29,638 nucleotides of DNA from a virus. The translations under genes and the position numbers were made by a program. The notes beneath the pieces were generated by a model, which saw only the letters and a list, made by a program, of their open reading frames with translations, did not search any database and was not told the DNA's origin. This document shows positions 4,833-20,612 of the stretch, piece by piece (position 1 is the stretch's first letter; every line of letters begins with the position of its first letter). Location of the stretch: the IMG/VR virus record IMGVR_UViG_3300027743_000072, positions 1 through 29,638 of that record. One strand, given 5' to 3'.

Positions 4833-4839
4833 CTAGGGT

Positions 4840-4915
4840 GTGGCCCAGGGCTGAGTCCGTGTCTGTGGTGGGGTCGGGGTCTCGATCCTCTGCCACTTGG
4901 ACGGCCCTGGGCTAC
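4840..4915 (+). promoter_or_regulatory. Long structured leader upstream of the ParB/methyltransferase gene
   Basis: The gap of about 98 bases holds a strong imperfect hairpin. GTGGCCCAGGGC (4840-4851) pairs with GCCCTGGGCTAC (4904-4915) over 12 positions with one G-U. Nested inside are GTCC/GGAC and GTGG/CCAC pairings in the right order. The structure ends five bases before the GGAGGT ribosome binding site at 4921-4926. The tail is TTTTC, but the stem is too long and open for a typical intrinsic terminator. A translational or RNA-stability element, or a small RNA, is inferred. Confidence 0.45.
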
Positions 4916-4930
4916 TTTTCGGAGGTAAAT

Positions 4931-6214
4931 GTGAAGATACCTATCGAGCAAGTTTCCTACGAGAAAACAGAGGATTCCGACGACCTGAAGGCAGACCTTG
5001 AGAATATCTCATCTTCCCTTAAGGAAGTCGGGTTAAGCCACCCTATAATTGTTCGTCCGGCGAACGGTTCCTACTCGCTTGTCTCTGGTGAGAAGCGTCT
5101 GAGGGCAGCAGAACTCGCAGGATGGAAAGAAATTGAGGCAGAGATCCGTGAAGTCTCAGAAATCCAGGGTAAGATCATCCAAACTCATGAAAACCTTAAA
5201 CGACACAATCTCCCTTGGTGGGAGGAAGCCGCCCTCATCCAAGCCCTCCACGCCTTCCGACAGTCCGAGCACGGAGAAGGCCAAAGTGGAAGGCCCAAAC
5301 GTGACGAGCCGAAGAAAACCGGGTGGGGCATACGCGATACTGCTATCGAACTTGGAAAATCGCTTGGACCAATTGCAGAAGATCTCCAGCTCGCTCGGGC
5401 GGTCCAGCTTGACCCTTCTCTCCGAAACATTAGAGATAAAAAGACAGCTATCCGGCTTGTCCGAATTGCTGCGCAGCGACACCAGGCTGAGGAAGAAGCA
5501 GGACTGGGAGGAGGAGCAGGAGATTTCGCAGTTAACCAGACCTATCTCGGAGATTCAGCCTCCATCCTCTCCCAATTCCCCGCCCAGAGCATCGACCATT
5601 GCATCACCGACCCGCCGTGGATCAAGTTCTTCGACGAAACACTCACGCTAGACAAGAGGACCCTCCCTGTCCTTGAGCAGGTCTACCGAGTGCTTCGTCA
5701 TGACGGTTTCCTGTTCATGTTCTGTGGCTTCGACGACCTTTCCTACTACTGTGGATTTGACCGCAGAGACAATAAGACCGGGGATCTCATTCACACAAAT
5801 GGGGAGCTAGAGAGGTTAGGCTTCAACATCTCCAAAAGTCCCATGATCTGGCACAAGCTCAACTCCATGAGCCGCCGAGGTGTGAGGTCGTGGGAATACG
5901 ACAGGAACTACGAGCTAGGGATCATCGCGACCAAGGGCTCTCCAGCAATGACAGCTCCGACGGTGAGTAGCGCGGTCAAGACGTTCCCTGTGGTGCCGCC
6001 GGTCAAGCTCATCCACCCGAACGAGAAGCCAGTGGAGCTTCTGAAGGACATCATTAACGACCTGACCTACGAGGGGAACATCATCCTTGATCCCTTCGGT
6101 GGGTCTTTCGTGACTGCCGTCGCAGCCAAGGAATCCAAGAGGCGTTACGTAATCTGTGAGCGAGATAAGAAGTTCTATGATGCTGGCCGCAAGCGTCTAG
6201 GCTTCAAGGAGTAG
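4931..6214 (+). CDS. ParB-like domain fused to a beta-class DNA methyltransferase
   Basis: A 427-residue protein starting at GTG 4931, four bases after GGAGGT. Residues 1 to about 100 match the ParB/Srx-like N-terminal domain: GLSHPIIVRP (34-43), SGEKRLRAA (52-60) and HENLKRHNL (86-94). Residues 110-195 are a charged linker. The C-terminal domain is an N6-adenine or N4-cytosine methyltransferase. It has the catalytic DPPW (227-230), HPNEKP (362-367) and then the S-adenosylmethionine-binding DPFGGS (387-392), the order of beta-class enzymes. Such ParB-methyltransferase fusions are common in phages and protect or mark phage DNA. No partner restriction enzyme is seen. Target specificity is unknown. 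Confidence 0.88.
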   Translation: MKIPIEQVSYEKTEDSDDLKADLENISSSLKEVGLSHPIIVRPANGSYSLVSGEKRLRAAELAGWKEIEAEIREVSEIQGKIIQTHENLKRHNLPWWEEAALIQALHAFRQSEHGEGQSGRPKRDEPKKTGWGIRDTAIELGKSLGPIAEDLQLARAVQLDPSLRNIRDKKTAIRLVRIAAQRHQAEEEAGLGGGAGDFAVNQTYLGDSASILSQFPAQSIDHCITDPPWIKFFDETLTLDKRTLPVLEQVYRVLRHDGFLFMFCGFDDLSYYCGFDRRDNKTGDLIHTNGELERLGFNISKSPMIWHKLNSMSRRGVRSWEYDRNYELGIIATKGSPAMTAPTVSSAVKTFPVVPPVKLIHPNEKPVELLKDIINDLTYEGNIILDPFGGSFVTAVAAKESKRRYVICERDKKFYDAGRKRLGFKE

Positions 6215-16757: not shown

Positions 16758-17144
16758 TTACACCTTCCTCAGTAAAAGTTCGCCGGGTTCATCTACGATC
16801 TCAAAGGAGAAATGTTTACTGATTAAGGTTGCAAACTGAGGATCTTTGATGAAACAATACAAATCTTCTAGACCAGCTAGGTCCGTCCCACGTATCGCTT
16901 CAAGTATAAGTAACTTAAGAGCTTCAACCTTGTTTCGTTGGCTGGCGTCTTTGTCCAGGAAGAACATAGCCTCGGCAAAAAGTCTGACTTGTCCGTAGGC
17001 GACGACTGTTCCTGATGAGTCCTCAACGACAGCATCGATAACCAGGTTATTCCGATTAGGAACGGAGAAGTCGTTAGCATGGTGCTTTCTCCAAATCTCG
17101 TCGATGACCTCCACATCATTCCGTCGAAAGCGTCTAATCTTCAT
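16758..17144 (-). CDS. GNAT-like acetyltransferase domain protein
   Basis: A 128-residue protein with the start of a GNAT N-acetyltransferase: MKIRRFRRNDVEVIDEIWRK, then two beta strands (NNLVIDAVVEDSSGTVVAYG) and a further strand ending MFFLD. The usual acetyl-CoA loop (R/Q-x-x-G-x-G/A) is not clear; the equivalent region reads DASQRNKVEALKLL, so CoA binding is uncertain. The start overlaps the stop of the DUF483/methyltransferase gene as ATGA, placing it in the same coupled set as the radical SAM enzyme. It might modify a virion protein or a host target. A non-catalytic GNAT-fold protein is an alternative. Confidence 0.6.
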   Translation of the reverse strand: MKIRRFRRNDVEVIDEIWRKHHANDFSVPNRNNLVIDAVVEDSSGTVVAYGQVRLFAEAMFFLDKDASQRNKVEALKLLILEAIRGTDLAGLEDLYCFIKDPQFATLISKHFSFEIVDEPGELLLRKV

Positions 17145-18499
17145 TTCGGTTTCAGAATACGAGATTCACAGGATTCGATTTGTTCTGAATCCACAAGAGT
17201 AAAATGGCGCGAAAGTAGAGTATCTATCTCTGGTATCCAAGGTTCATAGTAAGTGGTGACAATTAGGTATCGCGTATGTGCCCGGAGATGTCTGAGGAGC
17301 AGTTCAGCATCTTCCCCCTCTACCTCATTGAAACGATTGAGGGAGATTATGACAAGCTGGAAATCATCCCTCAAATACAAGCTAGTATTAAAGATATTAC
17401 CAAATTTAATGTTATCTCCAATACGGTCTACAGCTTTATGATAACGCTCGTCCCAACTCTCAACACCATATGGAACTAGGTAGCGATACTGGTCAACTAT
17501 GCGTTCTAACAATACCCCGTTACCACATCCGAGGTCAAGGACACGACCGCTATCCAATAGAATCTTGCTGACTGACCTAATAACGAGATCATGTGCCTTT
17601 CGCATTGCGCTGAAATTTGAGAACCCGTTGTCCGACCATGTATCCTTTATCCCTTGAATCATGGAGCTGGGACGAGAAGATTGAAAAGGGAATTCAGTTC
17701 CCGTCGCACCACCTTCCGGGTAGCTAGATCCTGGGAGATCGTATCGGATCTCCTCGGGTAACGCATCGCTGGAGGTAATTACCTTTAGAACTGGAGTCGT
17801 GATCATCGCTACACCGTGGAGGGAGGACCATCGGACAGGCCAGTTGAGCATGTCCCTAATCCAATCTACCTCAAGGTCAAATCCTGCTTGTGTAGCATGG
17901 GTCAGAATTTTATCACCAACAATGGAGGTAATCTCGCAACCCAGGGAGCAGGGAAGGTGGAACACAGAACGAATGCCGAGATGCCGCAATAAAATGTTAC
18001 AATGAAAAGTTCCGACATTCTTTGTGTTCCGAGTCATCGGGTAGGTCAGATCTCTCCAACCACGATCTACCCAATTGTCTTGAAAGAACTCAGTGCAGCA
18101 AGAGGGATAACCGAGATAAGTTCCGATCGTCAGATTATCCGACTCTAGCCAAGCTCTCATGAAAGCTTTGGGGTTATCCCCAATATAGACTCGATAATTC
18201 CAGGGCTTACCTTGCTCTAGTGGGATACTCGCATTCCCATATACTTTGGCTGCACCCTCTTGGCCAAGGATGACAAAGTCTAGTTCGTTATCATAGCAAA
18301 ATGCTTGAAGCTCCATCAGACGCTCAGGAGCTACTGTCTGTAAAGCGCCTCTCCTTAGCCCTGAGGTTACAGTTCCAAGCTCGATCTTGGGCCAGGCTGA
18401 GTTGATGTTTGCTATCTTCGGTTGCCAGATATTACGCGCTTGTTCCGACACCCAAATGATGCGTGTGAATTCTGGGAGGACGAAGTCTAGGCGATCCAT
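17141..18499 (-). CDS. DUF483-like domain fused to a class I methyltransferase
   Basis: A 452-residue two-domain protein. Residues 1 to about 230 carry a Cys signature: GYPSCCTEFF (C134, C135), then a conserved-looking N-x-LLRHLGIR and HLPCSLGCE (C184, C188). This resembles the DUF483 family, whose function is unknown and which may bind metal. Residues 300-452 are a Rossmann methyltransferase with VLDLGCGNG (320-328) as the S-adenosylmethionine-binding motif I and GVESWD as the acidic loop near 345-350. It overlaps the radical SAM gene by 13 bases and the GNAT-like gene by 4, so it probably acts in the same pathway. The substrate is unknown; a neighbouring peptide or protein is the natural guess. 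Confidence 0.65.
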   Translation of the reverse strand: MDRLDFVLPEFTRIIWVSEQARNIWQPKIANINSAWPKIELGTVTSGLRRGALQTVAPERLMELQAFCYDNELDFVILGQEGAAKVYGNASIPLEQGKPWNYRVYIGDNPKAFMRAWLESDNLTIGTYLGYPSCCTEFFQDNWVDRGWRDLTYPMTRNTKNVGTFHCNILLRHLGIRSVFHLPCSLGCEITSIVGDKILTHATQAGFDLEVDWIRDMLNWPVRWSSLHGVAMITTPVLKVITSSDALPEEIRYDLPGSSYPEGGATGTEFPFQSSRPSSMIQGIKDTWSDNGFSNFSAMRKAHDLVIRSVSKILLDSGRVLDLGCGNGVLLERIVDQYRYLVPYGVESWDERYHKAVDRIGDNIKFGNIFNTSLYLRDDFQLVIISLNRFNEVEGEDAELLLRHLRAHTRYLIVTTYYEPWIPEIDTLLSRHFTLVDSEQIESCESRILKPK

Positions 18500-19725
18500 G
18501 ACGGCTTCTCAGTTAAAAAGGTTGCTGGGATACCTTGCCTATTCATCGCATAATCCGTGTGGTCTCCATGCGCATCGCCATGAGGAACATCCCCATGAGC
18601 TACGTCACCATGAGCTACATCACCGTGGGATATGCCTTGCCAGCTTGCCAAGTAATCCCGTTCAATTTCCGCCTTGAATGCAGTATCCTTGGAGATAGGA
18701 AGCCTAGCCTCAGAGATAAGGTCAGTCTCAATACGCTCGAAAAGAGCATACCAAGTTTTGCAATCTTGTGTCCGATTCCGCCAGTCCCCATCGATGGCTG
18801 TTCCTGGACACTGACCCTTGCAGAAGATGAAGAAGGTGCAGTCCTTACATCCTCCATGTTCCTGAGGAGTCTTGTGGAGGAGGAGGTATCTCTCGTAGCC
18901 AGCCTCATCTGCTTTAACCCAGTTGACACCATCTTTATTAGCGCGACCACAATTAGACATAGAACCGTCAGGATTAATCCCCTGAACGGCATTAGTGGTG
19001 GAAGGGTCACAGTGGTTCCAAATACAGGAAACATTAGGATTCCTCTCGGTCAGGAGCTTGCGAATATCGGTAAACGGTTCCACATGGAGGCTAGAAGTTT
19101 TCGACCATTCGTAGAGTTCCAGGAACACATTCGTGGTCATTTCCTGTGTGAATCCGAGACCTTCCATCCCCTTCTCTACTTCGAGGAAATGGAGGTTGAT
19201 ATATCGGATTCCCCACTTCTCTACCTCATCAAGCCAGGCTGTTAGTTCAGGTAAGCGAGTCCCATTCGCTTGGTGAACAGTGACGATTAGAGAAGGATAA
19301 ATACCCTCCTCACAGAGCCGATGGATAGCCTTTATCGTCCGCTCAGTGCCCACCAAACTACCAGAATGATCATGACGAAAACTATTAAGCTCCCCAGGAC
19401 CGTCGATAGATATCCCCACGTAGACACCGTATTTCTTAAACAGGTCGATATGCGCCTCGGTGATGAGAGACCCATTGGTTTGGATTCCGTTCTTCCCGTA
19501 TTTTTCGTAGCCGAATCTCCAAACTTCTTCCAGATGTTCAATGGGGGCAAGTAGTGGTTCTCCTCCAAAAGTGACGAAATCCACACCTATCCGCTCGATT
19601 TGAGCCTTGACCCGAGGCCAGTCTCGTTTGGTCGTAATGTTACCTGCATCCCGCTGAGTCTCCTGGTAGCAATAGGAGCACTTGAGGTTGCAGGCAATAC
19701 CAACGGGGAGGTATTCTACAGTCAT
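18487..19725 (-). CDS. Radical SAM/SPASM peptide maturase with its own HGD repeats
   Basis: A 412-residue radical SAM enzyme. The 4Fe-4S site that cleaves S-adenosylmethionine is CNLKCSYC (C12, C16, C19), followed by FGGEPLL (53-59). The C-terminal SPASM domain fits the canonical pattern exactly: C239 to G254, GSMSNC (C259), C293-x2-C296-x5-C302-x3-C306, then C322. C234 may be an added ligand. SPASM proteins use auxiliary clusters to modify peptides or proteins, including ribosomal peptides. Residues 367-391 hold five HGD triplets and one HTD, resembling the repeats of the upstream gene. The start overlaps that gene's stop (TAATG). This is the likely catalyst of a virion-protein modification; the actual substrate is inferred. 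Confidence 0.88.
   Translation of the reverse strand: MTVEYLPVGIACNLKCSYCYQETQRDAGNITTKRDWPRVKAQIERIGVDFVTFGGEPLLAPIEHLEEVWRFGYEKYGKNGIQTNGSLITEAHIDLFKKYGVYVGISIDGPGELNSFRHDHSGSLVGTERTIKAIHRLCEEGIYPSLIVTVHQANGTRLPELTAWLDEVEKWGIRYINLHFLEVEKGMEGLGFTQEMTTNVFLELYEWSKTSSLHVEPFTDIRKLLTERNPNVSCIWNHCDPSTTNAVQGINPDGSMSNCGRANKDGVNWVKADEAGYERYLLLHKTPQEHGGCKDCTFFIFCKGQCPGTAIDGDWRNRTQDCKTWYALFERIETDLISEARLPISKDTAFKAEIERDYLASWQGISHGDVAHGDVAHGDVPHGDAHGDHTDYAMNRQGIPATFLTEKPSWIA
18553..18627 (-). repeat. HGD repeats at the radical SAM C-terminus
   Basis: A coding tandem repeat corresponds to residues 367-391 of the radical SAM protein. The H-x-D units are spaced five, five, five, four and three residues apart. 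HGDVA occurs twice and HGDVP once. The peptide DVAHGD is also present in the adjacent His-rich protein, showing shared repeat vocabulary between enzyme and putative substrate. Confidence 0.85.
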
Positions 19726-20612
19726 TATGGTCCAATGTAAGTCGGGTTATCGGTGTGAGGAGAATTTACGTGAGTTACATCAGTATGGTCCTGATGTGCT
19801 GCATTCTGATGGGGAGCATTCTGATGGGGCGTATCACCATGCGAGGAATTAGTATGCGCGCTGGAGTGAGCAGCATTCTGATGAGGCTGGTCATTGTGAT
19901 CGTCTACATGCGCTGAGTTAGAATGAGCCTGATCTGTATGGTCTGAGTGAGAAACGTCACTATGATCCTGGTGATTGTTTATACTACCTGAAGTATCATA
20001 GTGTGAAGTTTGGTCACCATGTCCTACACCATCAACATTTCCATCGCTATGGTAGGTAGGCTTGTCGCCATGTTCTACGTAATCAGAATGACCACCTGAG
20101 CTGCTATTTACATGAGGATTGTCAGTGTGAGTATTCGTATGAGGAACGTTGGTATGCCCGTCACCATGAAAATCGCTATGGGGATTATCGGTATGTGCAT
20201 CTCCATGAGACCCATTTGTGTGTGGGATTGAAACAGGAGGAACATTTACGTGTGGAGTGTTAACGTGGCTTGATCCTCCACCACCATCTCCATGAGCCAC
20301 ATCTTGATGAGCAATTCTGTGGACTTGATCTGCTCCAAGCCAACGAAAGTAGATCCATTCAATCCAGATAGAACCTTGTTGTCCATTAGGAATGACACCA
20401 GTCACAGCAGGCCCTGCGATATGGAGAACTTTAGTTCCAGACTCGTTGACATAAAGAAGGTTAGGTCCATCTACCCAAACGCAACCAGGCATGTAAGAGC
20501 CTGCGGGGATCACACCAACTAATAGACCATTCCATGCCCTTTCGGCTCCATCCTGATCGATGAAGCGAAAGGTGTCACCGGAGATCCAGATCGAACCGGC
20601 TTGCTTAGCCAC
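19725..20612 (-). CDS. Tail-associated protein with about 35 H-x-[D/N] repeats (putative rSAM substrate)
   Basis: A 295-residue protein. Residues 6-100 form about three repeats of a beta-rich unit (GSIWISG, GCVWVDG, GSIWIEW, with G-V-I-P-x-G links), as in a small fibre or propeller segment. Residues 102-288 contain 35 His triplets, of which 34 are H-x-D or H-x-N, mostly three to five residues apart, with Gly, Ser, Thr, Val or Gln in the middle. It starts at GTG overlapping the previous stop (TAGTG) and its own stop overlaps the radical SAM start. The layout resembles His-Xaa-Ser (Hxs) radical SAM substrates and aromatic-x-x cyclophane precursors. Metal binding by unmodified repeats is an alternative role. 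The exact family is not recognised. Confidence 0.75.
   Translation of the reverse strand: MAKQAGSIWISGDTFRFIDQDGAERAWNGLLVGVIPAGSYMPGCVWVDGPNLLYVNESGTKVLHIAGPAVTGVIPNGQQGSIWIEWIYFRWLGADQVHRIAHQDVAHGDGGGGSSHVNTPHVNVPPVSIPHTNGSHGDAHTDNPHSDFHGDGHTNVPHTNTHTDNPHVNSSSGGHSDYVEHGDKPTYHSDGNVDGVGHGDQTSHYDTSGSINNHQDHSDVSHSDHTDQAHSNSAHVDDHNDQPHQNAAHSSAHTNSSHGDTPHQNAPHQNAAHQDHTDVTHVNSPHTDNPTYIGP
19749..20309 (-). repeat. H-x-[D/N] triplet repeat array
   Basis: This 561-base coding region encodes the 35 His triplets. The DNA is variable at third positions and in the middle residue, so it is an old, selected protein repeat rather than a fresh DNA duplication. Spacing between His residues ranges from 3 to 10, most often 5. 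Confidence 0.85.

Follow-up and report, generated by a model that had tools for sequence, protein, structure and literature searches.

A phage radical SAM/SPASM enzyme with a conserved C-terminal tail of HxD units and its neighboring HxD-array protein

Genes of the rSAM locus

The window, i.e., the whole stretch of DNA analyzed (29,638 nucleotides; IMG/VR record IMGVR_UViG_3300027743_000072), is a viral record with genes for a polymerase, a primase and an exonuclease and with tail-type genes. Based on Pfam, NCBIfam and Foldseek, a gene for a radical SAM (rSAM)/SPASM enzyme of 412 aa was found on the minus strand (18487..19725). The gene directly upstream (19725..20612, minus strand), whose stop codon overlaps the ATG of the enzyme gene by one base, encodes a 295-aa HxD/HxN-repeat protein, the likely substrate. 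As read from its sequence, three GSIWI-type repeats at the N-terminus are followed by an HxD/HxN array (about residues 102–288; 19749..20309, minus strand), and the protein has 22 HxD units, or 34 with HxN included.

The gene directly downstream of the rSAM gene (17141..18499, minus strand) encodes a putative partner protein of 452 aa, in which Pfam, AF2 and Foldseek indicate a DUF483-like N-terminal part and a class I methyltransferase domain. In Pfam, MetW (8.7e-05) was above its cut-off and DUF483 (0.0064) below its cut-off. The AF2 model had a pLDDT of 92.9, and a Foldseek search with it matched the methyltransferase part and gave nothing for the DUF483 part. An alignment of 56 DUF483 proteins showed no variation at C134, C135 and C188 and very little at C184 and H181, a pattern suggestive of a metal or Fe-S site in this protein. 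For the next ORF after this gene (16758–17144, 128 aa), neither Pfam nor PHROG gave a match within the limits applied. Elsewhere in the window, a single ORF (4838–6214) matched both ParB-like and DNA methyltransferase PHROGs and is thus a ParB-methyltransferase fusion.

The enzyme matched Pfam Radical_SAM (5.9e-18), and the CxxxCxxC motif and the Cys-rich SPASM region place it among the rSAM/SPASM peptide maturases at the superfamily level. In 82 aligned rSAMs, which formed the set for structure and alignment out of the 134 unique homologues described below, C12, C16, C19, C234, C239, C259, C293, C296, C302, C306 and C322 were invariant. The best NCBIfam models for the window enzyme were DynA (99.4 bits vs. 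a cut-off of 450), AmcB (95.6 vs. 425) and the sulfatase maturase anSME (90.4 vs. 349), all far under their equivalog cut-offs, and the scores for YhhB and GrrM/OscB fell short by a wide margin as well. All 82 scanned members matched the DynA, AmcB, YhhB and GrrM/OscB models, none of them at the cut-off.

The best fold matches in Foldseek were anSMEcpe (1.2e-16) and ChlB; a literature search for ChlB gave no paper on that enzyme. The best PDB sequence match was also anSMEcpe (PDB 4k36–4k39), which differs from the present system in having no HxD arrays. Of note, proteins or peptides are the substrates of the nearest folds and of most of the nearest families. Anaerobic sulfatase-maturating enzymes oxidize a single Cys or Ser of sulfatases, and anSMEcpe recognizes its target, a full-size protein, by a short linear motif; to our knowledge, no anaerobic sulfatase maturase is a crosslinker.

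The HxD tail and its conservation

Residues 367–391 of the enzyme (HGDVAHGDVAHGDVPHGDAHGDHTD; 18553..18627, minus strand) contain five HGD units and one HTD unit, exactly as the first-pass annotation had read from the ORF. When the same protein was shuffled 20,000 times, the maximum was four HxD units in 25 residues, seen once, so the six units of the tail are not explicable by composition or chance. Among the ORFs of 60 aa or longer in the six frames of the window, at least three HxD units were found only in the rSAM ORF and in the adjoining 295-aa repeat protein, and the tail does resemble the putative substrate in its HxD units. The repeats lie past C322, the last Cys of the SPASM region, and AF2 predicted disorder there (pLDDT below 50 for residues 368–398, with 39–45 for the tail blocks), in agreement with their earlier placement outside the core fold. 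In the AF2 model of the enzyme, the tail was not docked and gave no backing for occupancy of the active site.

The tail is followed by a short C-terminal segment (residues 392–412, ...GIPATFLTEKPSWIA; 18490..18552, minus strand), which was delimited from pLDDT and from the similar, GIPxxxL-like ends conserved in close relatives. The last two blocks of the AF2 model had mean pLDDT values of 72 and 63, vs. 39–45 for the tail. This segment may anchor the far end of the tail and, since it is better predicted than the tail itself, the tail may form a loop in the subgroup that has it.

Homologues were retrieved by motif patterns from viral and chromosomal scans. After the removal of identical proteins, 134 unique rSAMs remained (76 viral and 58 chromosomal). 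The counts do not include the broken rSAM of L007 or the copy of the window itself (L002). A tail was defined as at least two HxD units in the C-terminal extension, with the first 60 residues past the core considered in fused proteins and the first 110 in all others. By this definition, 63 of 75 complete viral rSAMs have a tail and 12 do not, and it is present in 5 of 58 chromosomal rSAMs (5/39 unfused enzymes and 0/19 rSAM-DUF483 fusions) and missing in the other 53. Since near-copies persist among the 75 viral entries, clusters at 80% identity were also used, and the tail is then found in 41 of 47 clusters of viral enzymes and in 2 of 43 of chromosomal ones. Thus, phages are not alone in having the system; the conserved tail is largely a phage feature. 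As a control, 38 other rSAM-like viral ORFs were inspected, and no tail cluster was found among them; two have two HxD in the last 90 residues, in both cases inside the SPASM part.

In a FastTree phylogeny of the cores, presence or absence of the tail required six changes and the virus/chromosome division one change; 42 of 129 inner branches of this tree are open and some branches are long, so that gains are not separable from losses. The comparison of homologue C-termini asked for by the first-pass annotation showed the repeats present in some and absent from others, with gain and loss not distinguished. Tail-less homologues, whose equal activity had been named as evidence against a role of the tail, do exist. 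The tail is therefore not required for the fold and, judging from these sequences, is probably dispensable for basic catalysis.

The typical phage tail is PHGDxHGDHTD. Direct HxDHxD was found in 53 of 63 viral tails, which are richer in it than the arrays. Some phages have two rSAMs, one of them with a very long tail of 14 to 25 HxD and many PHGDHTD copies (L021:7508–9451; L328, L329, L330). In L007 (6001–6693), the rSAM gene is broken; its frame stops after 230 aa, and a separate frame piece of that contig (L217) encodes the tail.

Selection on the tail was estimated from 19 close pairs of hand-picked close relatives. The pN/pS ratio was 0.05–0.06 for the HxD units, 0.17 for the core and 0.40–0.41 for the rest of the C-terminal extension. 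By position and in both directions, the values were 0.008 for His, 0.007 for Asp and 0.21 for x in the tail, vs. 0.14 for the His, Gly and Asp residues of the core. The five HGD units of the window are encoded by five different 9-mers. Together with the low pN/pS, this indicates that the units are old and that their His and Asp are held. The tail is kept more strictly than the core in related phages, so it looks like a working part of the enzyme and not an accident. Self-modification, a built-in substrate mimic and a docking site, the functions first considered for it, are each compatible with strong purifying selection on precisely the His and Asp of every unit.

HxD arrays and the origin of the tail

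In the arrays, D or N stands at i+2 of His in 2,917 of 2,967 cases (98.3%), vs. 4–41% at the other offsets tested. A same-strand HxD-dense ORF was found within the stretch at 60 of 63 tailed viral loci. As in triceptide systems, a repeated aromatic-x-acceptor motif, here His followed by D/N at i+2, adjoins the maturase gene. Adjacency of an array probably does not explain the tail; this candidate cause was set aside because several chromosomal enzymes with an adjoining array are tail-less and the tail-less phages form two small parts of the tree. In the tail-less phages, the array gene is mostly further from the rSAM gene.

A search by array alone, using a DNA pattern in which four HxD units are spaced apart, matched 92 stretches, 80 of them listed, on 77 viral records. 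Among the array matches listed (80 of 92), 59 of the 77 records contain an rSAM of this family: 35 of 35 on contigs that were mostly already known and 24 of the other 42. DUF483 relatives were present in 16 of the 27 array records that were checked for them among these matches. The 24 rSAMs from the other 42 array records (again among the matches listed) include 20 with at least two HxD at the end, three with one and one cut by the record end. Fourteen complete, deeply divergent rSAMs (175–275 bits; from the same listed matches), some of them near-copies of one another, comprise 11 with at least two terminal HxD and 3 with one; an example of such an end is ...SGHGDAHGDEHGDKPHGDHTDV. Among the matches listed, 18 of 77 records, some of them short fragments, have no detectable rSAM of this family (L254, L255, L256, L261, L266, L270, L273, L286, L290, L301, L306 and seven more), which counts against a strict dependence of array on enzyme. 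Fragments, another enzyme or chance arrays are candidate readings of these records.

The phage array proteins often have GSIWI-type repeats; one has collagen repeats and tail-fiber matches (L181), and one has a lectin-like domain (L009). The chromosomal array proteins include short ones with a twin-Arg-like N-terminus and long ones with the array at the end. At the chromosomal loci L085–L142, which represent many bacterial phyla, the enzyme family, often DUF483-fused, occurs beside exported-looking or very long HxD-array proteins.

The HGDxHGDHTD form of the tail is restricted to the enzyme. A scan of 2.9 million viral contigs for DNA encoding this motif gave 33 stretches, 31 of which are in frames matching rSAM. 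The remaining two are best read as pieces of rSAM genes: in L239, the tail sequence is the same as the rSAM tail of another record and its own record has a whole rSAM, and in L231, the tail lies beside an rSAM gene split into several frames. In none of the 33 stretches was the motif in a repeat or array protein. The DUF483 proteins never had more than one HxD per 25 residues.

The tails also differ from the arrays in detail. Gly is the middle residue in 157 of 278 tail units vs. 374 of 2,075 substrate units, and a unit spacing of 3 was found in 63 of 206 cases in tails vs. 179 of 2,225 in arrays. At i+2 of His, the tails have 278 Asp and 3 Asn. At 60 loci, the share of tail 5-mers in common with the own substrate was 0.062 vs. 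0.054 for other substrates (mean rank 0.54, P = 0.34), and 37 of the 60 tails have no 5-mer in common with their own substrate. In one case of this set, the "nearest substrate" is another rSAM (L021), so the contrast between own and other substrates is a conservative one. The DVAHGD noted in the first-pass annotation as common to the enzyme and its neighbor is real, and uninformative, since sharing with the own substrate is not raised.

A further idea of that annotation was that the tail is a trace of gene fusion or recombination with the adjacent gene. Adjacent genes with similar motifs would fit such an origin. However, the longest DNA match between the tail and the substrate gene is 11 nt, which is the level of chance (mean of 11.0 for codon-resampled tails, P = 0.60). 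The units are synonymously diverged and under the strongest purifying selection in the protein, the tails do not track the local substrate, and they are found in lineages with differing gene order. We regard a functionless trace as extremely improbable. A recent copy from the neighboring gene is not supported, and the recombination trace was rejected on the match length, the synonymous divergence, the comparison of own with other substrates and the absence of HxD clusters from DUF483. The original observation of a substrate-like tail is sound and is more general than a reading of the single sequence could show.

A possible maturation system and known relatives

We suggest the following scheme for the three genes, to which, as a whole, we give somewhat less than even confidence. 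The trio would be a protein-maturation system. We infer that the rSAM/SPASM enzyme and the DUF483(-methyltransferase) partner would modify the H-x-D/N units of a phage tail-region array protein as their substrate, that one His-to-Asp/Asn crosslink (i to i+2) would be made per unit, by analogy with the three-residue cyclophane enzymes, and that the short disordered tail of the phage branch would act as a generic substrate mimic in cis, sitting, while no array is bound, in the HxD-binding site of its own chain or of the other chain of a dimer. The tail itself may also be modified. Given the near-absolute H-x-D/N rule and the chemistry of HaaB, YhhB and OscB, the crosslink is the likeliest product, which we propose tentatively. 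Tails and arrays differ in the share of Gly and in spacing, so the word "mimic" would be valid for the H-x-D grammar only. Several points stand against this scheme, namely the undocked, disordered tail in AF2, the tail-less relatives, the missed model cut-offs, an anSME about as similar as the cyclophane enzymes, and the array records without an rSAM. A bolder reading, which we consider rather doubtful, would be a widespread and so far undescribed modification system of phages and bacteria, in which tail-region or exported proteins would be stapled at dozens of His-x-Asp units by the rSAM enzyme and the tail of the phage enzymes would be a self-modified "starter" that gates the active site, i.e., an rSAM counterpart of the borosins.

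A mimic in cis is tentatively favored over a docking motif for the DUF483 protein or the array. By the docking explanation, which we consider somewhat unlikely, the DUF483 partner would bind HxD units and the tail would recruit the partner (or the array) outside the active site. Viral rSAM loci have a DUF483 relative in 73 of 76 cases and chromosomal ones in 57 of 58. This protein has no HxD cluster of its own and is thus a candidate for reading such units. The tail is generic, with no match to the local substrate. None of the 19 natural rSAM-DUF483 fusions is tailed, as expected if the tether substitutes for the tail, but 34 of 39 unfused chromosomal enzymes are tail-less too, so the argument from fusions is weak and not independent of ancestry. 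It is also possible, though improbable, that the tail is a metal-binding appendage, whose His and Asp would chelate Fe, Ni or Zn and thereby serve stability, the handling of metal or assembly together with the array. The HxDHxD pattern of the viral tails is chelator-like, and iron is held by phage tail fibers via HxH, as described in the available part of PMC11705849. However, the exact H-x-D spacing with Asp is not needed for chelation, the HxH pattern is not kept, and the near-constant D/N at i+2 of the array His resembles a reaction site.

For the Thermus phages Cumys and phiMa, a three-gene module of an rSAM gene, a DUF483 gene and an unknown gene was described with a suggested role in DNA modification, proposed from a cyanobacterial neighborhood (PMC11437467, available part). 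The window likewise has an rSAM gene with a DUF483-type gene and a third gene adjacent, in identical order, and its enzyme is 46–47% identical to those of the two phages. The protein listed there as unknown bears an HxD array, and the C-terminus of the rSAM reads ...EHGDYTDHGDAPHGDHWDG; the available text of PMC11437467 leaves the HxD repeats unmentioned. The module of the window differs in that its DUF483 part is joined to a methyltransferase domain. In Cumys, phiMa and phiLo and in the IMG/VR contig L001, the enzyme, the HxD protein and the DUF483 protein lie in one region, and each enzyme terminates in HxD units. If the module modified DNA, the HxD protein and the tail would be unrelated to its substrate, which we consider very improbable: the adjoining repeat protein, the rSAM found with most arrays (59 of 77 records, among the matches listed) and the substrate-like tail agree with a protein as the substrate, and the nearest relatives in fold and family mostly act on proteins or peptides.

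The proposed chemistry has its closest models in the triceptide enzymes. According to the available part of PMC11002830, HaaB and YhhB make C2(His)-Cβ crosslinks from i to i+2, giving three-residue rings, and the acceptor of OscB is the Cβ of Asn or Asp at i+2. XncB, OscB/GrrM, HaaB, YhhB and also DynA share with the window system the rSAM/SPASM type and the aromatic-x-acceptor motif, with His at i as in HaaB/YhhB and Asn/Asp at i+2 as in OscB. They differ in that scores against their models are far below the cut-offs (99 vs. 450 for DynA), the likely substrates here are proteins with dozens of units, and a DUF483 partner and a substrate-like tail borne by the enzyme are added. The closest precedent for a self-modified tail is provided by the borosins, in which a methyltransferase (OphMA) carries its own core peptide at the C-terminus (PMC7878506 and PMC8429565, available parts). 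These maturases also bear a substrate sequence C-terminally, but they belong to another enzyme class, and the fungal fused peptide is the substrate, in contrast to the separate array protein here.

In the open-access literature, searches that combined rSAM with phage tail, repeats, HxD or cyclophane gave no prior account of the HxD system, which subscription papers might contain, and no paper other than PMC11437467 naming both radical SAM and DUF483. The HxD system thus appears to be undescribed, and the module itself is published with a guess at DNA modification (PMC11437467, as far as available).

With the proposed scheme, what was a phage module of a hypothetical protein plus an rSAM would become a maturation system that is open to testing and has a clear H-x-D/N rule. 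By probably acting on tail-region proteins, this system would likely influence how stable virions are or how they adsorb. That a substrate-like tail is conserved more strongly than the catalytic core is unusual and hints at the way in which an rSAM enzyme might deal with an array of dozens of sites. Furthermore, HGDxHGDHTD works as a tag for such enzymes, since the scan with this motif led to rSAM genes or their pieces only.
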